Part shown: piece by piece, positions 8,510 through 55,173 of the stretch
Layout of the letters: each line of letters opens with the position of its first letter
How positions within the stretch are numbered: position 1 is the first letter of the stretch
From: Leptolyngbya sp. FACHB-321
GTDB taxonomy: Bacteria; Cyanobacteriota; Cyanobacteriia; Leptolyngbyales; Leptolyngbyaceae
Direction: 5' to 3'
DNA length: 64,000 nucleotides
NCBI RefSeq assembly: GCF_014695975.1
Contig: NZ_JACJPI010000042.1
Location: forward strand, 186,001 to 250,000
The notes under the pieces: generated by a model
Database searches by the model: none
Seen by the model: the letters and a program-made list of their open reading frames with translations, nothing else
What the model was told of the DNA's origin: nothing
Translations under genes and position numbers: made by a program

Positions 8510-9991
8510 CTAGGGTTTACTTACAGTTTTTACCGTCAAAACCTGAGGCGGAGTAGAATCGGGCGGATAGAGAAAGTCAAGCTGTACGAGGCGACGATCG
8601 CCCTTTGGCATACTCAGCGAAATCAACGGCTCACCCTCTTGTCCCCGCTGCATCGTCAGGTGAGTGTAGCGGGTTTGAGGCGCACCTTTATCATCCGTAT
8701 AGCGCACACGCACGGGACCACGAAAGAAAACGCGCTCTTCTGGGGGTGTAAAAAACAGCAACCCACCTTTGATTCGATCTTCCTTGACAGGCGTTTGAAG
8801 GGCTAATGTCACCGTTTGGGGTTGTCCAGTGGTGTTGTGAAGCGGCAACGTTAGGCTGTACTGAATACCGTAGTTGCCATGAGCCCGGTAGGCTGTATCG
8901 TCATAGCGAGCCACCAAGGGAGCACTTTGCACTTGCCCTGTGCCAAAGGTGCCCCGCTCAAGCATACTAAGCCCGTAAGAGAAAGCACGTCCCCGTTTTG
9001 GAATGCTGAGAGCATCAGACTTCGGGCTGTCTGTTAAGTTTGCCTTCCACTCAGACCCCATTGCTACGCCTGCCACGCGTCCATAAATGACGGTTGCATA
9101 ATCCTTCAAGCGGCTAATCGGCGTTGGCGGAATATCACGTGGTCCTGCCAATCCGCTGTTAAGCAGTAGGTTTTGCCATTCTTCAGACGAGGGGCTGCGC
9201 TCTGTTTTATCAGGATTCAGAGGCGCAAACATGGCTAGACTCGCCATGTAAATGGGTCCGCTGCTTCGTAGTCGCAATAGGGTTGAACGACCGTTGGAGG
9301 ATGGTGTGACGGTGCCCACTGGGATAGGCAGGTTCATAAGCATCCAGCTTTGGCGGGGCGGAATGACTGTGACAGCAGGCCAATTTCCCTGCCGCCGTCC
9401 GCGCAAGACATCGTTGACTGCACGACTACCGGGTCCTGCATACACTCGACCGATCGGATCATCCACGTAGGACGGTAGGTTGATAAACAGCGCATCTGGG
9501 CGGGTGAGGTAGCTTGCGCCTTGCAAAATATCAACTGTGACAGGCTCATAGGTTGGGTTATAGAGTAACACTCCCTGGAATAGGGTGCGCGTCTCGCTAG
9601 CATCTTTCGCTTTCGCGATATGGTGCGAAAAGATGTCAAACCGACCCTGGAAGGGAAAATTGAGATGAGCGGCGGGCACTGCTTTCCCGTCGGGTGGAAA
9701 GGTAGAGAGCAAAATCCCTTCAGTTTGCACCAGCTCTGGACTGTTACTATTGAAAACCGGCACGTTATCAAGCTGACCAGGTAAGGGGCGGAGTTCTTGC
9801 GGTGCAAAGACCTCTTGACGCTGCAATGGTTCTAGGGGTGGTAAGCGTTGCTCCTGCGATGGCACAATCTCTTGCGGGGGCGGCACCCTGGACGGTTGCG
9901 GCGCGGGGAAGCTTGGAGGTGATGGTAAGGGAACGGGAGCAGCGATCGTCTGCGCGAGAGTGAAGAACGAGAACAATGACAACATCAGCAA
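8510..9991 (-). CDS. DUF3370 family secreted protein
   Basis: This roughly 490-residue protein starts with a signal peptide ending near TIAAP, followed by a proline/glutamine-rich linker (about 18-70) and then a long beta-rich domain of the DUF3370 family, found mainly in cyanobacteria. Function is unknown; location in the periplasm or outer membrane is inferred from the signal and proline linker. The start is uncertain: TTG at 9991 and ATG at 9985 are both possible in frame, and a stop lies just upstream, so no longer form exists. It faces away from the MORN gene at 10397. Confidence 0.75.
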   Translation of the reverse strand: MLMLSLFSFFTLAQTIAAPVPLPSPPSFPAPQPSRVPPPQEIVPSQEQRLPPLEPLQRQEVFAPQELRPLPGQLDNVPVFNSNSPELVQTEGILLSTFPPDGKAVPAAHLNFPFQGRFDIFSHHIAKAKDASETRTLFQGVLLYNPTYEPVTVDILQGASYLTRPDALFINLPSYVDDPIGRVYAGPGSRAVNDVLRGRRQGNWPAVTVIPPRQSWMLMNLPIPVGTVTPSSNGRSTLLRLRSSGPIYMASLAMFAPLNPDKTERSPSSEEWQNLLLNSGLAGPRDIPPTPISRLKDYATVIYGRVAGVAMGSEWKANLTDSPKSDALSIPKRGRAFSYGLSMLERGTFGTGQVQSAPLVARYDDTAYRAHGNYGIQYSLTLPLHNTTGQPQTVTLALQTPVKEDRIKGGLLFFTPPEERVFFRGPVRVRYTDDKGAPQTRYTHLTMQRGQEGEPLISLSMPKGDRRLVQLDFLYPPDSTPPQVLTVKTVSKP

Positions 9992-46300: not shown

Positions 46301-47370
46301 TTCTAGTGTTTGAGCGCACGAAGACAGGGGACATTATCCAGGGTTTGCCCCGGATTGAAGAACTGTTGGAAGCGCGGAAACCTAAAGAGGCGTGTGTGTT
46401 GGCAGCACGACCGGGGGTCGCACAGGTTGTATACGGTGATGACGACTCGGTGAAGGTGAAGGTGATTGAAAACGATGGTGTGATTGCCGAATACCTCATC
46501 GGTCCTGGACAAAACGTCATTGTTTCGGATGGGCAAGAAGTCCTTGCAGCCGAACCGCTTACCGATGGACCGGCTAACCCTCACGAAATTTTGGAAGTCT
46601 TCTTCAAATATCGTCGAGAAAGTGATGGTGTCCATGATGCGGCACTGGTGAGTTTGCAGATGGTGCAGACATTCCTGGTGAACGAGGTGCAGTCGGTGTA
46701 TCAATCTCAAGGGGTTGATATTTCAGACAAGCACATCGAGGTTGTGGTACGTCAGATGACCTCCAAAGCACGTGTGGACGACGGTGGTGACACGACTATG
46801 CTGCCCGGTGAGCTTGTAGAGCTTTACCAGGTAGAGCAGGTCAACGAAGCCATGGCGATAACAGGTGGTGCACCCGCAGAGTATACTCCGGTGCTGCTGG
46901 GCATCACGAAAGCCTCGCTAAATACCGACAGCTTTATCTCGGCAGCTAGCTTCCAGGAAACCACACGGGTGTTGACGGAAGCCGCGATCGAAGGTAAGTC
47001 TGACTGGCTGCGCGGCTTGAAGGAAAACGTGATCATTGGACGCTTGATTCCTGCGGGAACAGGGTTTAATGCGTACGAGGAGCAGGGTAGCCCTGATGTG
47101 GATCTCTCCTACGACGGCATCGGTGTCTTTGACGATGATGCTGATCTTAAGGATGTGGTGCTAGACGATCGCACCGCTCGTTCCTATGGGTTAGACAGTT
47201 TCGATGAGCGTCCTAGCTATACCTTCGACAACTTCGGTGTAGTTGGTGCGGCGGCTGAAGTCGAACCGTTGTCGCCCATTCTGGAAGATGACGATTTAAT
47301 CAGCGATGATGTTGACGATATAGACGTTGACGTTGACGTGGATGTCGATGTTGATCTTGACGACGAGTAA
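43339..47370 (+). CDS. rpoC2: RNA polymerase beta-prime subunit (C-terminal half)
   Basis: The 1343-residue subunit carries the trigger loop and bridge-helix region ([20 protein letters not shown], then [19 protein letters not shown], and [20 protein letters not shown] with FHTGG) and, between the trigger-loop halves, the large insertion (about 390-980) of repeated beta domains typical of cyanobacterial RpoC2 (SI3). The last 25 residues are almost only Asp and Val ([16 protein letters not shown]), a low-complexity acidic tail. The start may instead be the ATG at 43360. Confidence 0.97.
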
Positions 47371-47401
47371 CATCTAAGGGGTATAAAGCTCTGTTGATAG
47401 A

Positions 47402-47427
47402 GGGGTGCGGCAATCGCGCCCCTTTTT
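47402..47427 (+). terminator. Intrinsic terminator of the rpo operon
   Basis: GGGGTGCG (47402-47409) pairs with CGCGCCCC (47415-47422) with one G-U, over a five-base loop, followed by TTTTTC. It lies 32 bases after the rpoC2 stop. Confidence 0.92.
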
Positions 47428-47611
47428 CATTTAAATTGGTTTACAGCAATTTTTATTTATGTATGCCATACGAATTGTCTGGTTTGCCTTAATCCAGAGG
47501 CGTTACTTGTGTAGCACTCGTCTAAAGATCGCTGTAAGACTAATCAGCGCAAGACCAACTGGCTCAAAACCAACGGGCTTAAGACAGTATCACTAGGTGG
47601 AGTAAGGCTTG

Positions 47612-48652
47612 ATGATCAGTCCTGACGATGAGGTGGTAATCCTACTGCACGATGGTGTTTGTGGGACACAGGGCAAAACAGGCTTGACTCTCTTGCGTTA
47701 CAGCGAAGCCAACATTGTGGCAGTGATCGATCGTGCGACTGCTGGTGGCTCTTTACCTGAATTAACAGGCATTCCGCGATCGGTGCCCATTGTCGCTTCG
47801 ATAGAGGAGTCACTCACGTACAAACCGAATGTGCTGGTCATCGGTATCGCACTGCTGGGGGGCATTTTGCCTGAGGATTGGTATCAAGACATACGGCAAG
47901 CGATCATGGCTGGACTATCGATCGTCAATGGGTTGCATACACCCTTAAACCGTGATCCAGCACTTCAGGCGCTCCTTAAACCGGGACAATGGATCTGGGA
48001 CGTGCGGCAAGAACCACTTGGCTTAAGCGTGGGTACTGGGCAAGCTCGCGCACTCTCCTGTTTACGGATTCTGACGGTGGGCACTGATATGAGCGTCGGC
48101 AAAATGTCTACCAGTCTAGAACTCCATCGTGCTTCTCTACAACGAGGACTGCGATCGCACTTTCTTGCCTCTGGGCAGACGGGGATGATGATTGCTGGCA
48201 GCGGTATACCTCTGGATGCTATTCGGGTTGATTTTGCGGCGGGTGCGGTCGAACAACTGGTGATGAAGGCAGGCAGCGATCGCGACATTTTGCACATCGA
48301 AGGGCAGGGTTCTTTGCTGCATCCATCCTCTACGGCGACGCTTCCCTTGCTCCGAGGCAGCCAGCCTACTCATTTGATCTTGGTGCATCGAGCTGGACAG
48401 ACTCATATTCGCAATGCTCCCCATGTGCATATTCCACCCTTGCCTGAAGTCGTGCGGCTTTACGAAGCAGTGGCAGCGGCAGCAGGAGCATTTGCTTCAA
48501 CACGGGTAGCCGCGATCGCCCTCAACACAGCGCACTTATCTGATCAAGAGGCTCAACAGGCGATCGAGCGGGTACAGCACGAAACCAACTTACCCTGCAC
48601 TGACCCTGTACGTCTAGGCGCGAAACTACTATTAGATGCTGTTCTGACGTGA
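47612..48652 (+). CDS. DUF1611 family protein (DgcN-like)
   Basis: The 346-residue protein has an N-terminal Rossmann-like domain and a P-loop-like GTDMSVGKMSTSLEL near residues 155-169, the signature of DUF1611. Some members (DgcN) are reported as D-glutamate N-acetyltransferases or linked to Ala-Glu epimerases; whether this one acts on D-glutamate is unknown. The ATG at 47612 has GGAG nine bases upstream. Its stop codon overlaps the ATG of speD (TGATG at 48650-48654), so the two are translationally coupled. First gene of the six-gene polyamine/membrane cluster. Confidence 0.82.
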   Translation: MISPDDEVVILLHDGVCGTQGKTGLTLLRYSEANIVAVIDRATAGGSLPELTGIPRSVPIVASIEESLTYKPNVLVIGIALLGGILPEDWYQDIRQAIMAGLSIVNGLHTPLNRDPALQALLKPGQWIWDVRQEPLGLSVGTGQARALSCLRILTVGTDMSVGKMSTSLELHRASLQRGLRSHFLASGQTGMMIAGSGIPLDAIRVDFAAGAVEQLVMKAGSDRDILHIEGQGSLLHPSSTATLPLLRGSQPTHLILVHRAGQTHIRNAPHVHIPPLPEVVRLYEAVAAAAGAFASTRVAAIALNTAHLSDQEAQQAIERVQHETNLPCTDPVRLGAKLLLDAVLT

Positions 48653-49005
48653 TGCGATCGCACCATTTCTCGGCTATTTTGACAATAACAGACGCGATTG
48701 CCAGCAGCACCGCGCCTACGCTGTTGCAGTTGCTTCAAACTACTGTCCAGACTGCTGGCTTAACCGCTGTAGCAGAAGCAACGGCAACTTTTTTCCCTCA
48801 GGGCGTTTCGGTAGTGCTGCTGCTAGAAGAATCTCACGTTGCGCTCCATGTTTGGACTGAATACTGCAAAGCAACCGTCGATATTCACGTCTGCGATTAT
48901 CAGCAAGACAACTACGCCAAAGCACAAAAATTAGCGGTGTTATTAGCAAGCGCCCTCACAGATAGCGATCGTGCCCAATGGCATTACTTAGAAATAACGG
49001 ATTAG
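48652..49005 (+). CDS. speD: S-adenosylmethionine decarboxylase proenzyme (SpeD-like)
   Basis: The 117-residue protein is of the short bacterial AdoMetDC class. The pyruvoyl cleavage site is E60-S61 in LEESHVALHVWTEY, with H66 and C81 at +5 and +20 from the serine, exactly the spacing of S63, H68 and C83 in the Thermotoga enzyme. It should therefore self-process and make decarboxylated AdoMet, the aminopropyl donor. The N-terminal half is more divergent than in canonical SpeD. Start overlaps the previous stop by one base. The aminopropyl acceptor enzyme is probably the spermidine-synthase-like gene at 49937. Confidence 0.88.
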   Translation: MRSHHFSAILTITDAIASSTAPTLLQLLQTTVQTAGLTAVAEATATFFPQGVSVVLLLEESHVALHVWTEYCKATVDIHVCDYQQDNYAKAQKLAVLLASALTDSDRAQWHYLEITD

Positions 49006-49112
49006 AGACAGGCTAAAAGTAAAGTTTTGCGTGCTCAGAGCTGAGTTTTGGATGTAGCAATTTAATTTAGAGTTCAGGCTTTCAGGACAATACTCTCTTT
49101 AAGTAATATCTC

Positions 49113-49787
49113 ATGACAGCAGGGCTAACCGAAACCCAATTGCGGCAATTACGGGAAGGCAGTCGTCTGAAATATCATGGTGTTCAGTGGGAGATTCAAG
49201 ACTACAGCACCTATACAGATGACAATGGCTACAAAACAGAAGAATGGCTGCTCCGATCGAGCAGTGGCAAAGAGTATTACTTAATGCGCGAGATCGATCC
49301 GCAGCATGCCCAAGCACAAGTTCATTGGTATCTTGCCGAAGAGCTACGGTATCCTACGCTGATCGACCCACAAACGTCCCGCGATCGACTAACAACGATC
49401 GGTGGAGATATGCGATCACACGTCTCTCCTTACCCAGAACTGCAACTATTCAATCGCGTTTATGCCTTTGAATCTCAAACCGAGGGCGATTACGAATCGG
49501 ACGGAGAAACCCGCCATCGGATTACTTGGGACTACTGGGATGCCGCCCATCTCTGGAATTTGGCGCTAGAAGCCTGGAGCGATGGCACGTTAGTTGTCTA
49601 CTCCACCCGTGAAGTGCAGCCCAGCGACTTTACTGAAATGCAGTCAAGTAACCGTGCAGCGCTTGCCCCAGGACAAAGCTTTAGCTCTTCTCTGACCTCT
49701 GATAACCGTAAGGCACGCAGCCGCGAATTTGTGATTGCCTGGATCATCACGATCGTCGGCTTCCTTTTAATGATTTCTGGCATTTAA
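49113..49787 (+). CDS. DUF4178 domain protein with C-terminal membrane anchor
   Basis: A 224-residue protein whose main part matches the DUF4178 pattern (LREGSRLKYHGVQWEIQDYS, then WLLRSSSGKEYYLMRE, and an ITWDYWDAAH block near 143), a beta-rich domain of unknown function. The last 18 residues (AWIITIVGFLLMISGI) form one membrane helix, so the domain faces the cytoplasm with a tail anchor. DUF4178 genes are known to sit beside speD, DUF350 and spermidine-synthase-like genes in many bacteria, as they do here. Confidence 0.78.
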   Translation: MTAGLTETQLRQLREGSRLKYHGVQWEIQDYSTYTDDNGYKTEEWLLRSSSGKEYYLMREIDPQHAQAQVHWYLAEELRYPTLIDPQTSRDRLTTIGGDMRSHVSPYPELQLFNRVYAFESQTEGDYESDGETRHRITWDYWDAAHLWNLALEAWSDGTLVVYSTREVQPSDFTEMQSSNRAALAPGQSFSSSLTSDNRKARSREFVIAWIITIVGFLLMISGI

Positions 49788-49879
49788 CCATCGTGTTTAG
49801 GTGTTGAATTGATTCAGCGTTTAACCCTGAGCCTTTTAACCCCTTACTTCACTGCCTAGCAGCGGTGAGCTATGCACCT

Positions 49880-49936
49880 CACACTTTCCTCCTCACGCCT
49901 CACCCCTCTTTCCTCCCTTTTCCCTCACCGCTCCTA
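49880..49936 (+). repeat. Pyrimidine-rich low-complexity leader of the speE-like gene
   Basis: Repeated cctcac/cctccc/ccctcacc words fill the bases before the ATG at 49937. They belong to the dispersed family noted at 1450-1602 and 52555-52625. They displace any ribosome-binding site, so coupling or leaderless initiation would be needed. Confidence 0.55.
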
Positions 49937-51409
49937 ATGCCCACATCCCTCTTCATCGAACAGCACTCCAACGGTCTTGCCTTTTATATCAACGGCGACT
50001 TGCAGTTTGATACGGCAGATGAAGCCATTTATCACGAATATCTGGTGCTGCCAGCGATCACTCTTGCCGCTCAGCGCTTTCCGCAAACGCCCTTGCGTGT
50101 CTTAATCTGTGGTGGTGGTGATGGTTTAGCTGCACGGGATGCGCTACGGTTTTCGCAGGTTAGCGATGTGACGCTGGTGGACTACGACTCAGAGGTTTTG
50201 GCGTTCGGTCGCACAGTCTTTGTGCCCTACAACCAGGGTAGCTTGCTAGATGAGCCTAGTGCCGCATTGGGGGAAACCCGCCTGACAGTACATACTCAGG
50301 AAGCGTTTGAGTTTGTTTCTCGCTTGCCTGACGCTTGCTATCACGTGGTCATTTGCGACTTCACGTTTCCAACGCGAGCAGAAGACGCACAAATTTACAG
50401 CCGCGAATGGTTTCAGCAAGTAGAGCGCATACTTTGTCCAAACGGGGTCATGAGTACTAATGGCGTTTCGCCCGAACAACGCACATTGGGCTTTTGGTGT
50501 CTTTACCAAACATTATTAGCCGCTGGGCTACAGGCAAAACCCCTCCAGGTTGCTATTCCGTCGTTTCAAGCACATGGCTATGGCACTTGGGGTTTCTTGC
50601 TTGCGTCAGCAATGCCCATTACGCGATCGGAGGTCGAAGCGCTTTCCTTCCCTCCAGCTCTGAGCGCGTTACAGCCCCAGGATTGGATGGCTGCCTTTCA
50701 GCTTCCAACGACGATCGCCCAACATCGGCATACTGTCAACGTGCATACGCTGGCTTGTCCTCAGCTTTTTTATTACCTGCTCAATCCTCGGTTGCCATTA
50801 GAAACAACGGCGATCGCCCCCTCAGATGCAGAACTACAAACAACTGATTTTTTAGATCTTCAAGAAGCCGGAACAGGCTGCCTTGGTACGCGCGACTTGC
50901 TGCAATTAGACTCCATTGCTTCCGTCTGGCTAGAGGAGTTGTATCGATCGGACAACCTTCAAACGCCTCAAGCTCTCGATCAACTAATGCCTGTGCAGCA
51001 TCGCTACCACAGCGCTCAAATGACGAGTGAATGGATGGGCTATCTCAAAGCGCTCTTAGAAGAAGTAAACCTCAATCAACTGATTGCTAGTCTATTGGAA
51101 CGCGCTCAAGAATTACCCCCTCAACTCGTACGTGAACTCAAGCAATTAGCAGAAAAGATTCGTACAGGGCAACCGTTAACCTACGTTTCTGAGCATACGG
51201 CTGAAGTCATCACACTCCTTTCTGTAACGTTATTGATGGCAAACTTGACAAGTCCAGATGTTGTCTTTGCAAAAGGATATTCCAGTTCCTCAGGCGGTTC
51301 CAGCTATAGCGGCAATGGTAGCGAATCGGATCTTGGTATATTTGGCATGTGGACGATGATCATCGGTGGTTTCTGGCTTTGGAATTTGTATAGCAACCCC
51401 GATGATTAA
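49937..51409 (+). CDS. speE: Spermidine-synthase-like aminopropyltransferase with C-terminal membrane anchor
   Basis: The N-terminal 270 residues match spermidine synthase: YHEYLVLPA (32-40), the dcAdoMet-binding GGGDG (59-63), the acidic VDYDSEVL and CDFTFP near 148 at the catalytic-base position. Residues 270-430 are helical and unlike standard SpeE; the end has a hydrophobic stretch (VITLLSVTLLMANL), a Gly/Ser-rich loop and a second membrane helix (IFGMWTMIIGGFWLWNLY). At 490 residues it is about 200 longer than normal SpeE. The acceptor amine may not be putrescine. It fits downstream of SpeD in a shared pathway; the gene symbol is by similarity. The ATG at 49937 follows a translated-repeat-like stretch that should not be coding. 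Confidence 0.8.
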   Translation: MPTSLFIEQHSNGLAFYINGDLQFDTADEAIYHEYLVLPAITLAAQRFPQTPLRVLICGGGDGLAARDALRFSQVSDVTLVDYDSEVLAFGRTVFVPYNQGSLLDEPSAALGETRLTVHTQEAFEFVSRLPDACYHVVICDFTFPTRAEDAQIYSREWFQQVERILCPNGVMSTNGVSPEQRTLGFWCLYQTLLAAGLQAKPLQVAIPSFQAHGYGTWGFLLASAMPITRSEVEALSFPPALSALQPQDWMAAFQLPTTIAQHRHTVNVHTLACPQLFYYLLNPRLPLETTAIAPSDAELQTTDFLDLQEAGTGCLGTRDLLQLDSIASVWLEELYRSDNLQTPQALDQLMPVQHRYHSAQMTSEWMGYLKALLEEVNLNQLIASLLERAQELPPQLVRELKQLAEKIRTGQPLTYVSEHTAEVITLLSVTLLMANLTSPDVVFAKGYSSSSGGSSYSGNGSESDLGIFGMWTMIIGGFWLWNLYSNPDD

Positions 51410-51445
51410 TGTGCTTTTCCTTAGCTTTCTCCACCTTGCGTGACC

Positions 51446-52540
51446 ATGTTGACTAAACTGCTGGAATCAGTCAAACCATCCGGTCAGCTTACGATGCGTC
51501 TGCTGACACTAGACGATCGCACTCAATGGGATACGCTCATTCAAACATTACCCACTGGTTGCTTTATGCAGTCGTGGGCATGGGCAGACTTCAAAGTGTT
51601 AGAAGGCTATCAAGCCTTTCGTTATGGTCTTTTTGCCGAAAAAACATCTGCCGAGAACTCGTTAGCTGCAAAAAACTTAGCCGAGCAAGTCTTAGTGGGT
51701 GGCTGCTTTTTCTACTATTATCCGTGCGGATACACAGCCAATTTATTGTTCGCTCCTGGTGCTCCTTGCTTCATGCCAGGCTTTGAGCAGGAAGGGATGA
51801 CACTGCTCCTGGAACAAGCAAGCGTTTTGGCAGAAAAGCTAGGGGCGATCGCTCTCCGAATCGAGCCATTGTTAGCACAAAAGCCGACGTATCTCGATCG
51901 CTTTGTTCCCGCACCAGTCGAGCTTTTGCCATCAGAAACGCTGCTGATTGATCTCCAGCCTCAAACAGCGGCAATTCTAGCGGCAATGAAGCCGAAAGGA
52001 CGTTACAACATTCGTTTGAGCCAGCGCTATGGCGTGCAAACGCAATTTACAACAGATATGCAAGCGCTGCCGCTGTTCTACAATTTGTTTTGGGAAACCG
52101 TAAAACGGCAGCATTTCTTTGGTGAACCCTATCGCTTTTTCATCAACCTTTGCCAGACGCTCTTTGCCACTCAAATGGCAGAAATCGGCTTGGCAACCTG
52201 GCGCGGTGAAGTGTTAACAGCCGTTTTAGTCCTGTACTGGGGCGATCGGGCGACATACCTTTACGGTGGACGCAGCATTGATCATCCACACGTGATGGCA
52301 AGCTATGGGCTTCATTGGGCAGCCATGCAGCGTGCTAAAGCTAGAGGCTGCAAACACTACGATTTCTACGGTTATACCTGCAATCCAAACCATAACTATG
52401 CCAAGTTTTCGCAGTTCAAGCGCCAATTTGGTGGCACATCTGTAACCACGATCGGTGCTCACGATTATTTTTTCTACAATCAGCTAGCAGGTACATTGAT
52501 TGGGTTACTAAAGCGAGTGAAAAGAGAGGGTGAGGGATGA
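51446..52540 (+). CDS. FemAB-type aminoacyl/peptidyl transferase (GNAT fold)
   Basis: This protein (about 364 residues) resembles the FemABX/lipid II:glycine glycyltransferase group: FMQSWAWADFKVLEGYQAFR (about 38-57), GRYNIRLSQRYGVQ near 185, WETVKRQHFFGEPYRFF near 215 and a C-terminal HWAAMQRAKARGCKHYDFYG, then KFSQFKRQFGG block, the duplicated GNAT layout. Such enzymes move amino acids from aminoacyl-tRNA to cell-wall or other amines. In this cluster it could attach an amino acid to, or accept, a polyamine (inference). The start may be the ATG at 51446 or a later one; both leave the domains intact. Confidence 0.82.
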   Translation: MLTKLLESVKPSGQLTMRLLTLDDRTQWDTLIQTLPTGCFMQSWAWADFKVLEGYQAFRYGLFAEKTSAENSLAAKNLAEQVLVGGCFFYYYPCGYTANLLFAPGAPCFMPGFEQEGMTLLLEQASVLAEKLGAIALRIEPLLAQKPTYLDRFVPAPVELLPSETLLIDLQPQTAAILAAMKPKGRYNIRLSQRYGVQTQFTTDMQALPLFYNLFWETVKRQHFFGEPYRFFINLCQTLFATQMAEIGLATWRGEVLTAVLVLYWGDRATYLYGGRSIDHPHVMASYGLHWAAMQRAKARGCKHYDFYGYTCNPNHNYAKFSQFKRQFGGTSVTTIGAHDYFFYNQLAGTLIGLLKRVKREGEG

Positions 52541-52554
52541 AAGCTAAAAAAGAA

Positions 52555-52625
52555 AGTTTTAAGTTACTCCCTATTCTCCCTTCCCTACTCCCCATTCCCT
52601 ACTCCCCATTCCCTACTCCCTATTC
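52555..52625 (+). repeat. Tandem ccctactcccatt-type pyrimidine repeat
   Basis: About five imperfect copies of an 11-13 base unit (cccattccctactcc, ttccctactcc) followed by three copies of aacaacca. This is the clearest copy in the window of the dispersed cyanobacterial spacer repeats. Confidence 0.8.
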
Positions 52626-52657
52626 TTCGCTTCTAACAACCAACAACCAACAACTAT

Positions 52658-53524
52658 ATGAACCCTTTCTTTCTCGACGGCCTGACCCGCATTGGGTTTG
52701 TAATCACTGAGCTAGCGGTTGGCTTTGGTATTTTTTGGCTGGGACAGTTGGCGTATCAAAAGCTGTTCCGGCGCATGGATTTAAACCTGGAGTTGTTTGT
52801 GCGAGATAATCCGGCAGTGGCGATCGCGCTAGTCGGCTATAACTTCGGCATCATCCTAGCACTGGCGGGCGTATTGGACAAAGAAGGAGAAACATGGCTC
52901 GACCAGTTGCTTTACCTAGCAAGCTACGGTGCAGGAGTCATTTTACTGATGCTAGTGGGCGCATGGGTGGGCGATCGGCTCATTCTCCGCCGCTGTGACT
53001 GTGCCCGCGAAATAGTCGAGGAGCAAAACGTTGGTGCTGCCTCAGCCGAAGCGGGTGTACATATTGCCAACGGACTTGTTTTAAGCGCAGCACTTGGCGG
53101 GCAAAGTGGCACCTGGATTGTTGGGTTAGTTTGCTGGGCTGTGGGGTTAGGCGTCCTGGTGCTGGTGAGTGCCCTTTATCCTCGTGTGGTTCACTACAAC
53201 GTCTTTCGTGAAATCTGCAAACGCAATAATCCGGCAACTGGCGTGGCGCTGGCTGGCTTATTGATTGCTACTGGTAACGTTGTACGAGTTGCGTTTACAC
53301 CAGAGTTTCAAAATTGGACGGAGAGCTTTACCCAATATTTCATCGTGCTGGGCTTTTGCCTGCTTGCCCTAGCGTTGATCCGCTGGCTAGCTGACTTGGT
53401 TTTGGTGCCCGGTGTGAAAATTTCGGATGAAATTGTCAATCAGTCGATACCCAATCTCGGTGCAGGACTGATTGAAGCCTTTGCCTACATTGCAGGTTCC
53501 TTCCTGCTGACTTGGAGTGTGTGA
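52658..53524 (+). CDS. DUF350 family polytopic membrane protein
   Basis: The 288-residue protein has about eight hydrophobic helices in two homologous halves, each with an N-P-A motif: RDNPAVAIALVGYNFGIILA (about 49-68) and KRNNPATGVALAGLLIATGN (about 188-207). This internal duplication is typical of DUF350 (YjfL-like). Function unknown; genes of this family repeatedly occur with SpeD, DUF4178 and amide-ligase or spermidine-related enzymes. It is the last gene of the cluster that starts at 47612, and could be the membrane partner that uses or exports the product. Confidence 0.85.
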   Translation: MNPFFLDGLTRIGFVITELAVGFGIFWLGQLAYQKLFRRMDLNLELFVRDNPAVAIALVGYNFGIILALAGVLDKEGETWLDQLLYLASYGAGVILLMLVGAWVGDRLILRRCDCAREIVEEQNVGAASAEAGVHIANGLVLSAALGGQSGTWIVGLVCWAVGLGVLVLVSALYPRVVHYNVFREICKRNNPATGVALAGLLIATGNVVRVAFTPEFQNWTESFTQYFIVLGFCLLALALIRWLADLVLVPGVKISDEIVNQSIPNLGAGLIEAFAYIAGSFLLTWSV

Positions 53525-53845
53525 GTGCGCTCTGACAACAACCTGCCCTTACAAGCCGTAATTTTTCTGTAGAAAGTTCTTCTAGACTTTGCTGAAGCGT
53601 CACGCTGCTTGAAATTGGGATGAGGCGGTATAGCAAAAGGATGAAAGATGAATAGAAGCCCTTGTTCAAAGGAAGTTTCAAGGTGTATGTCTGTCCTAAC
53701 GCGCTCGTCGACTGCTATATCTAAGCCTTAGACTCTAAGTGCGAGACGGTTTAAACTGTCAGGTTTGCGATCGTGATGGTTGCCGTTACAATGCCACTAT
53801 TTGCGACCTTTAGCCCAGTACCCAATTGAATGAGGAGAAACGGAT
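53525..53845. other. 321-base gap after the cluster
   Basis: No protein-like frame and no convincing terminator. GAGGAG at 53832-53837 is the ribosome site of the next gene. One HIP1-like site near 53767. Nothing else recognised. Confidence 0.3.
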
Positions 53846-54145
53846 ATGCACAGCCAATATAATAACGAGATGCAAATTACCATTTACTATCTGAATGGAC
53901 AGGTAGAGTCGTTTAAGTTTTCGCAACTAGCCGATCCGGCAGCGCTGGAACAGGAATTGCAGCAAGAAATTCGACGGATTCTTGATAAAGAATGGTGGTT
54001 CTTTCATCTAGCCGATCAAACGGTGTGCGTGAGCCGCGCTAACGTGCTGAAAATTGAACTGAAGCCCTCGATCGCACAAATTCATGGTGAAGGAGTGTTT
54101 GCCAATGCTCAACGTGTCACTGCTCTTAGCCGCGCTCACGAGTAA
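53846..54145 (+). CDS. Small conserved-looking hypothetical protein
   Basis: A 99-residue protein beginning at an ATG eight bases after GAGGAG. It alternates beta strands and helices (MQITIYYLNGQVESFKFSQL, then an acidic helix with LEQELQQEIRRILDK, then WWFFHLADQTVCVSRANVLK), reminiscent of a small Ubiquitin- or SH3-like fold, but I recognise no family. Its good ribosome site and codon use support it as a real gene. It may be co-transcribed with the DUF362 gene 59 bases on. Confidence 0.6.
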   Translation: MHSQYNNEMQITIYYLNGQVESFKFSQLADPAALEQELQQEIRRILDKEWWFFHLADQTVCVSRANVLKIELKPSIAQIHGEGVFANAQRVTALSRAHE

Positions 54146-54204
54146 CGGTTTCTCATAGAACTCTCTGTAATTTCAAAGCCAACTTTACCCTTGCTAGAAC
54201 TTCT

Positions 54205-55173
54205 ATGGACGTGCAGCCATCGGTTAGCTTGATTCGCGCTCAGTCGTACGATCTCGCTCAACTGCGTCAGTCGCTCGAATCGTTACTAGAGCCGTTGGGT
54301 GGTATGGCAGCCTTTGTCAAACCAGGCGATCGCGTCCTGCTGAAGCCCAATTTGCTAACGGGGTCGCGTCCCAGCAAAGAGTGTGTCACGCGACCTGAAG
54401 TGGTTTACTGCGTTGCTCAGATGGTGCAGGCAGCAGGCGGCAAGCCTTTTTTGGGTGATGGTCCGGCTTTTGGCAGCGCGAAGGGAGTCGCAAAAGCGAA
54501 TGGTTATTTGCCGCTGATCGATGCACTGAACCTACCGATCGTAGAGTTTCACGGCAAGCGCTACGAAACGGTAAGCGCAGAGTTTAATCATTTGCTGCTT
54601 TCTAAGGAAGCGATCGATGCGGATGTTGTGATCAACCTGCCCAAGGTGAAGTCGCACGTCCAGCTAACCATGACGATGGGTGTGAAAAACCTGTTTGGCT
54701 GTGTTCCTGGCAAGATGAAAGCTTGGTGGCATATGGAAGCGGGCAAAGATTGCGATCGCTTTGGCACTATGCTGGTCGAAACAGCACGGGCGATTGCCCC
54801 TGACCTCACCATTCTGGATGGCATTCTTGGACATGAGGGTAACGGACCAAGCGGTGGCGAACCCCGTCGTCTGAATCTGCTCGCTGCCTCTAGCAATGTC
54901 TTTGCGCTGGATCGAGCGATCGTGGACATTCTCAATGTCGATCCTGCTTCTGTGCCGACTGTCGCAGCGTCGCAACGGTTGGGGCTATGTTCGACGGTAG
55001 AGGCGATTGACTTTCCCTTACTACAGCCGCAGGCACTCCACATCACAGACTGGAAACTGCCAGACGCTCTGATGCCGATCGACTTCGGGATGCCCCGCGT
55101 TATCAAATCAACCTTCCGTCATCTTTACATTCGCTGGATCAAAGAGCCGAGGCAAGTGTATGCCGGACGTTAA
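54205..55173 (+). CDS. DUF362 domain protein
   Basis: The 322-residue protein matches DUF362: KPGDRVLLKPNLL (about 39-51), GDGPAFGS, VINLPKVKSHVQLTMTMGVK then NLFGCVPG (about 143-171) and GHEGNGPSGGEPR (about 209-221). Many DUF362 proteins carry a C-terminal 2x[4Fe-4S] ferredoxin domain; this one ends without it, so it is the short type. A role in iron-sulfur or metal-linked reactions is sometimes proposed; none is established here. Its stop codon lies in the first copy of an 18-base tandem duplication. Confidence 0.82.
   Translation: MDVQPSVSLIRAQSYDLAQLRQSLESLLEPLGGMAAFVKPGDRVLLKPNLLTGSRPSKECVTRPEVVYCVAQMVQAAGGKPFLGDGPAFGSAKGVAKANGYLPLIDALNLPIVEFHGKRYETVSAEFNHLLLSKEAIDADVVINLPKVKSHVQLTMTMGVKNLFGCVPGKMKAWWHMEAGKDCDRFGTMLVETARAIAPDLTILDGILGHEGNGPSGGEPRRLNLLAASSNVFALDRAIVDILNVDPASVPTVAASQRLGLCSTVEAIDFPLLQPQALHITDWKLPDALMPIDFGMPRVIKSTFRHLYIRWIKEPRQVYAGR

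Follow-up and report, generated by a model that had tools for sequence, protein, structure and literature searches.

A SpeE-like aminopropyltransferase homologue paired with a FemAB-family transferase in a conserved DUF4178/DUF350 gene set of Leptolyngbya and other bacteria

The window analysed here is a stretch of 64,000 nucleotides from Leptolyngbya sp. FACHB-321 (contig NZ_JACJPI010000042.1, positions 186,001 to 250,000), in which six co-directional open reading frames (ORFs) occupy positions 47609-53524 of the + strand. They encode, in gene order, DUF1611, SpeD, DUF4178, SpeE-like, FemAB-family and DUF350 proteins (Table 1). All six score above the curated Pfam cut-offs in profile searches, in agreement with the families assigned in an initial annotation, including the duplication of DUF350, for which two matches fall within one frame. 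DUF1611 and SpeD share the single start-stop overlap that had been noticed, of 4 nt, and the remaining intergenic gaps are 107, 149, 30 and 117 bases in gene order when the SpeE-like gene is counted from 49937. The ORF listed for this gene opens at a GTG at 49865; alignment with its relatives begins instead at the ATG at 49937, giving a protein of 490 aa.

Table 1. Features of the gene cluster and its upstream boundary (positions within the window).
Feature	Position	Strand	Support
DUF1611, DgcN-like P-loop protein; TTG start; clade-limited accessory	47609..48652	+	PF07755 257 bits, PF17396 95 bits
SpeD, pyruvoyl AdoMet decarboxylase homologue; GTG start	48649..49005	+	PF02675 60 bits
DUF4178, beta-rich domain and C-terminal membrane helix	49113..49787	+	PF13785 49 bits
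SpeE-like aminopropyltransferase homologue; C-terminal helical extension with two predicted membrane helices	49937..51409	+	PF01564 77 bits
FemAB-family double-GNAT transferase, E229 and F326-K327	51440..52540	+	PF02388 98.3 bits (cut-off 24)
Duplicated DUF350 membrane protein	52658..53524	+	PF03994 140 bits, two stretches in one frame
Terminator-like stem between upstream gene and cluster	47399..47425	+	12-pair stem, 7 G-C, then T-rich tail; consensus scan only

Conserved co-occurrence in related genomes, on which the initial annotation had staked its proposal beforehand, was found. A set of 194 genomes of the phylum was searched with the SpeE-like protein and with the FemAB protein separately. 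Relatives of the long SpeE are present in eight of them, and FemAB alone, at E <= 1e-20, identifies the same eight genomes and adjoins the SpeE-like gene in 8/8, a distribution that marks it as a dedicated member of the set. The order DUF4178-SpeE-FemAB-DUF350 is observed in six of the eight, the window counted.

A scan of named genomes was made with the FemAB alignment, and the best 80 of 242 related loci were kept. The scan patterns derive from SpeE-linked FemAB proteins and are thus biased to this subfamily, not to a SpeE neighbour; some loci of this set and of the phylum set are, judged by length, identical contigs (L061/L033, L070/L034, L081/L037 and L106/L038). A neighbour is scored as absent when the flanking DNA examined gives no profile match at E <= 1e-3. 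A SpeE-like gene is present in 58 of the 62 best-ranked loci (E <= 6e-57) and, by profile, in 0/18 of the lower-ranked ones (E 2e-54 and weaker). In all 58 loci with both genes SpeE precedes FemAB in the same orientation, at a distance below 200 nt in 57, the exception being L101, whose SpeE match falls into two overlapping frames. Overlong ORF starts in the GC-rich loci L098, L101 and L089 lead to two large negative gaps. Of the four best-ranked loci without SpeE, three begin no more than 1.3 kb from the contig start and the fourth is L074, discussed below. Judged by record title, hosts of the pair include Cyanobacteria, Obscuribacterales, a Sericytochromatia metagenome-assembled genome (MAG), Herpetosiphon, Geomonas, Elusimicrobia, Omnitrophica, Rokubacteria and Methylomirabilota, which span six or seven bacterial phyla.

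In the flanks of the 58 SpeE-linked loci, profiles detect DUF4178 in 43, DUF350 in 34 and SpeD in 30. The DUF350 count may miss members, since a short DUF350 protein of Herpetosiphon was overlooked by the profile. The core set is DUF4178-SpeE-FemAB-DUF350, often with SpeD. The linkage proposed earlier for all six genes consequently stands for these families and fails for DUF1611, which precedes SpeD in only 5/80 named loci, all near relatives of the window, and is ruled out as a core member. A phmmer search of 19 regions of the phylum set returned only the window's own DUF1611, and this protein scores 248 bits against the NCBIfam DgcN family, below the cut-off of 480. To look for further constant neighbours, genes up to 7.5 kb from FemAB were compared across the 62 best-ranked loci by BLASTP (E <= 1e-8, coverage 50%). 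The 25 largest of the resulting groups include none that holds a constant place in more than 6/62 loci; the two largest, with 13 and 8 loci, occupy differing places among the six positions listed, and one family lies 1.1-1.5 kb after FemAB in six loci (four of Herpetosiphon, L106 and L107). At the Herpetosiphon locus L091 (7446-14234) SpeE reaches 834 aa, its long tail running past the membrane helix; FemAB comes next, and after it an unassigned 124-aa protein, a DUF350 of 74 aa, a membrane protein of 280 aa and SpeD.

The SpeE-like protein is about 170-200 residues longer than six ordinary SpeE ORFs (283-324 aa). Its AlphaFold2 (AF2) model, which covers the 490 aa with a mean predicted local distance difference test (pLDDT) score of 81.8, matches spermidine synthases over ~270-290 columns, the best being 1uir (E 5.5e-19), followed by 6qmm from Synechococcus. 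The first strand of the catalytic domain is placed at residues 5-10, with no N-terminal membrane domain, and the remainder of the model is helical, with C-terminal helices at 419-438 and 466-486 and low confidence between them. The extra length and two C-terminal helices described earlier are thus borne out in the model, although the second helix is not general, because 31/59 SpeE rows have at least two hydrophobic segments beyond residue 380. The protein falls below the NCBIfam equivalog cut-offs both for speE (76.6 of 249.55 bits) and for PRK03612 (195.5 of 472), its best NCBIfam match, which aligns over the C-terminal half of that family (263-514 of 522). It is the genome's only SpeE-like match at E <= 1e-10.

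Residues Q23, D28, E29, Y32, H33, the GGGDG motif with D62, and D141 are invariant in the 58 readable SpeE rows, and E34 of the YHE motif is kept in 57. The remaining row, L075, is a 157-aa contig-edge fragment that was treated as a gap in residue counts and omitted from the SpeE tree, as was the second Geomonas copy, L135. The second Asp of D-x-x-D-P (position 144) is present in 0/58 linked rows, where it is replaced by Y (25), F (13), V (11), C (4), A (2) and S, H or L (1 each), while it is present in 12/12 seven-transmembrane spermidine synthase (7TM-SpdSyn) and 6/6 ordinary SpeE comparators. Of the three Asp residues in KlSpdS, one captures the aminopropyl group of decarboxylated S-adenosylmethionine (dcSAM), another deprotonates putrescine and the third anchors this diamine at its far end (PMC10146546). 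Compared with SpeE spermidine synthases, the linked proteins keep the dcSAM-capturing Asp, the catalytic Asp and YHE but lack the far-end Asp. They form one side of a branch (Shimodaira-Hasegawa-like approximate likelihood ratio test, SH-aLRT, 96), and the Asp state changes once on the tree. Read from these residues, the acceptor is probably not a putrescine-like diamine and may have an uncharged or hydrophobic far end at the membrane, which is in line with the earlier suggestion of a membrane-attached set whose acceptor need not be putrescine (far-end Asp in 0/58 against 18/18 comparators).

A separate motif, N-x3-P-D-x3-A-K-G, is located just after the first SpeE membrane helix (residues 436-447; window 51242-51277). 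Across phyla its N, P, D and K are each conserved in 58/59 rows, its A in 55 and its G in 54. The motif resembles a signal peptidase I site, for which the fixed Lys after it would be unusual, and with a cytosolic catalytic domain it would face outwards from the membrane.

The assignment of the FemAB protein to that transferase type is reinforced by its closest relative of known structure, the lipid II:glycine glycyltransferase 6snr (E 1.9e-30), followed by FemA and FemX; its scores are far below two FemAB-type NCBIfam equivalog cut-offs. Position 229 is Glu in 59/59 linked FemAB rows, and also in L074, L097, L100 and L104, while the 18 unlinked rows have Lys (15) or His (3). Aligned with E229, the three solved Fem proteins, FemX, FmhB and FemA, have an Arg; in FemX this Arg presumably contacts the UDP phosphates. 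No account of the FemX Lys36/Arg211 contacts was found in the open-licence PMC papers searched. A quick tree separates the 63 Glu229 rows from the others at one branch (SH-aLRT 100), with a single change between Glu and Lys/His. A fixed Glu at this position would fit a cationic acceptor, as far as a single evolutionary event can suggest. The Phe-Lys pair F326-K327, the register of which was set by the motif because the FemX alignment was available only to residue 300, is conserved in 59/59 linked and 18/18 unlinked rows; its counterparts are FemX Lys305 and DhpH-C Phe328-Lys329, and several members of the FemX/DhpH-C group act on small molecules (PMC12945691). Thus the cluster FemAB has the family match and the Phe-Lys motif in common with the FemABX proteins (FemX, FmhB, FemA) and departs from them in the Glu that takes the place of Arg and in its partner, an aminopropyltransferase homologue.

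SpeD carries the processing and catalytic residues of class 1b AdoMet decarboxylases, S62, H67 and C82 when counted from the GTG, or S61, H66 and C81 from the next Met, the numbering under which the family spacing had been recognised; the intervals of 5 and 20 residues are those of T. maritima S63/H68/C83 (PMC10407285). S62 and H67 are present in 31/31 aligned rows and C82 in 30/31, with one gap. F48 is found in 31/31 rows and position 69 is W in 23 and Y in 8; these are presumably the adenine-stacking residues, which would bear on whether AdoMet or ornithine/arginine is the substrate. The protein is the sole SpeD match in the genome and scores 62.6 bits with TIGR03330, below the equivalog cut-off of 75.65. 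The same genome encodes SpeA (764 bits) and a deoxyhypusine-synthase-like protein (233 bits), and therefore general polyamine supply need not run through the cluster. SpeY, a bacterial deoxyhypusine-synthase homologue, is described as making homospermidine (PMC10407285). In genome G185, of the window's own family, a low-scoring SpeD (E 1.2e-14) was detected and SpeE-like, DUF350, DUF4178 and FemAB gave no match.

The AF2 model of DUF4178 (pLDDT 88) ends in a helix at 198-222, consistent with the tail anchor predicted earlier. Sequence searches of the PDB returned no relatives of DUF4178 and, for DUF350, only two haemoglobin chains at E 0.1-0.2.

The nearest described arrangement is the SpeD/membrane-SpdSyn/DUF350 system, of which the present set is taken as a variant. 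In the PSP study, PspA/CesT operons are reported to carry DUF350, DUF4178 and a 7TM-SpdSyn fusion, and the monitoring of polyamines, or of aminopropylation of other substrates, is suggested as a possible role of these systems (PMC11237479). Both arrangements contain an AdoMet decarboxylase, a membrane-tied SpdSyn-like protein, DUF350 and DUF4178. In contrast with that system, the membrane helices here are C-terminal instead of an N-terminal 7TM domain, the second D-x-x-D-P Asp is lost and FemAB adjoins (58/62 best-ranked loci); in addition, neither PspA nor CesT was found among the eight window proteins at 47609-55173, to which the Pfam scan was confined. Glutathionylspermidine-synthetase-like ATP-grasp/DUF350 clusters, described in PMC11237479, likewise place an amide-forming enzyme in a polyamine/DUF350 operon, whereas amide formation here would come from FemAB. 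A GSP_synth match occurs in 0/8 FemAB genomes against 11/194 overall (expected ~0.45), which is no evidence either way on FemAB replacing ATP-grasp. A membrane-fused spermidine-synthase-like protein reportedly does not make spermidine (Li et al. 2019, Biochem J 476:2579). In the open-licence PMC papers searched no link between FemAB and a spermidine synthase was found, and for DUF350 with DUF4178, or with AdoMet decarboxylase, only the PSP study (PMC11237479). A combined search of the same papers gave no closer arrangement among the 12 of 28 matches listed.

The explanation that we tentatively favour, at somewhat below an even chance, is that the genes form a dedicated membrane-bound module in which the SpeE-like enzyme aminopropylates an acceptor other than putrescine and FemAB aminoacylates the same molecule. 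SpeD would decarboxylate S-adenosylmethionine (SAM), the anchored SpeE-like enzyme would move the aminopropyl group to a non-putrescine-like acceptor at the membrane, and FemAB would transfer an amino acid from aminoacyl-tRNA to an amine of that molecule; the last two steps could also run in the opposite order. DUF350 and DUF4178 may keep the product in the membrane, sense it there or move it. The bolder proposal, that such modules make undescribed membrane metabolites which are both aminopropylated and tRNA-dependently aminoacylated (aminoacyl-aminopropyl lipids or amines), and that the specificity of each enzyme underwent a lasting shift as the two became paired, is rather unlikely in our estimate. 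Such a product, if real, would represent a new type of cationic molecule in membranes. The constant FemAB partner suggests aminoacyl-transfer chemistry for one version of the SpeD/DUF350 system, and in this compact operon the SpeE second-Asp site and FemAB Glu229 offer two swappable residues that would bear on specificity.

Several observations weigh against a module of this kind. In L074, an Acaryochloridaceae MAG, a linked-clade FemAB with Glu229 (8835-9899) has no SpeE on its contig, and the presence of DUF350 (34/58) and DUF4178 (43/58) by profile is incomplete. The Glu and the missing Asp each trace to a single event, so that the row counts are not independent replicates, and a contact between E229 and a cationic acceptor is itself a supposition. 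SpeD is on the opposite strand in 13/58 loci and outside the examined flanks in 28/58. A genome-wide check of 14 of these 28 revealed SpeD in five and none in nine: PF02675 detects no SpeD in 8/8 Pseudanabaena (L081-L083, L085-L088 and L090) or in a Chroococcidiopsidaceae MAG (L075), all of which keep the SpeE-FemAB pair and so speak against a simple scheme in which SpeD feeds SpeE. One of these Pseudanabaena genomes, G193, is 99% complete. The cluster's own SpeD profile gave chance-level matches in two of the nine genomes (E 0.1 and 0.5), and the class 2 AdoMet decarboxylase profile (PF01536) matched none of them, nor did its control match anywhere. Either another enzyme makes dcSAM in these genomes or the donor differs.

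The latter possibility, in which the SpeE-like enzyme is no longer dcSAM-dependent and uses SAM, for methyl or aminocarboxypropyl transfer, or some other donor, with SpeD optional, is improbable but would account for the nine SpeD-less genomes and agrees with the sub-cut-off NCBIfam score of the cluster SpeD. It is opposed by SpeD in the examined flank of 30/58 loci, with processing residues kept, and by the retention in 58/58 SpeE rows of the Asp that captures the dcSAM aminopropyl group in KlSpdS; Pseudanabaena SpeE is included in this count and keeps its donor-side residues. Ordinary synthesis of spermidine, or of a homologous polyamine, by an enzyme that merely has a membrane anchor could be expected from a cluster that holds the only SpeD and the only SpeE-like (E <= 1e-10) matches of a genome with SpeA. 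The loss of the diamine-anchoring Asp in 58/58 rows, scores far below the speE equivalog cut-offs, the adjoining FemAB and a separate deoxyhypusine-synthase-like protein make this decidedly improbable.

FemAB might alternatively be a cell-wall enzyme of peptidoglycan side chains within an envelope-stress operon that has no shared product, and this we regard as slightly less probable than the change of donor. Its closest solved structure is indeed a lipid II glycyltransferase, and envelope-stress operons of the PspA type have been reported with polyamine genes, DUF350 and DUF4178 (PMC11237479). However, an invariant Glu stands here in place of the Arg that the three solved Fem proteins share, FemAB tracks the long SpeE in 8/8 genomes, and the 25 largest groups of other neighbours supply no partner constantly placed in more than 6/62 loci. 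EF-P and eIF5A carry polyamine- or amino-acid-derived modifications, and a protein acceptor can be envisaged in which DUF4178 is an EF-P/eIF5A-like barrel modified by both transferases. VIA-align with the DUF4178 model places EF-P or EF-P-like proteins in nine of its best ten rows, the tenth being a conserved hypothetical protein, with Z 5.1-5.8 over 58-65 residues that correspond to about the first 65 of EF-P (domain I), which is below the level of kinship. Such values (Z < 8) may reflect a common arrangement, Foldseek returned nothing at E <= 0.001 (best PsbP, E 0.018), and no Lys or Arg is among the polar or aromatic residues shared by 95% of 20 DUF4178 rows, so that a modified DUF4178 is very unlikely.

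The cluster is preceded by a gene ending at 47370 that, by eye, we take to encode the RNA polymerase subunit rpoC2. The consensus scan that located the intervening terminator-like stem gave 6 such sites for the region, compared with 7.1 for shuffled sequence. Downstream, at 53846-55173, the window encodes a short protein with a sub-threshold Band_7 match and then a DUF362 protein of the Npun_F2552 family, and the same Band_7-like/DUF362 pair is also present at L057 (15973-17293).

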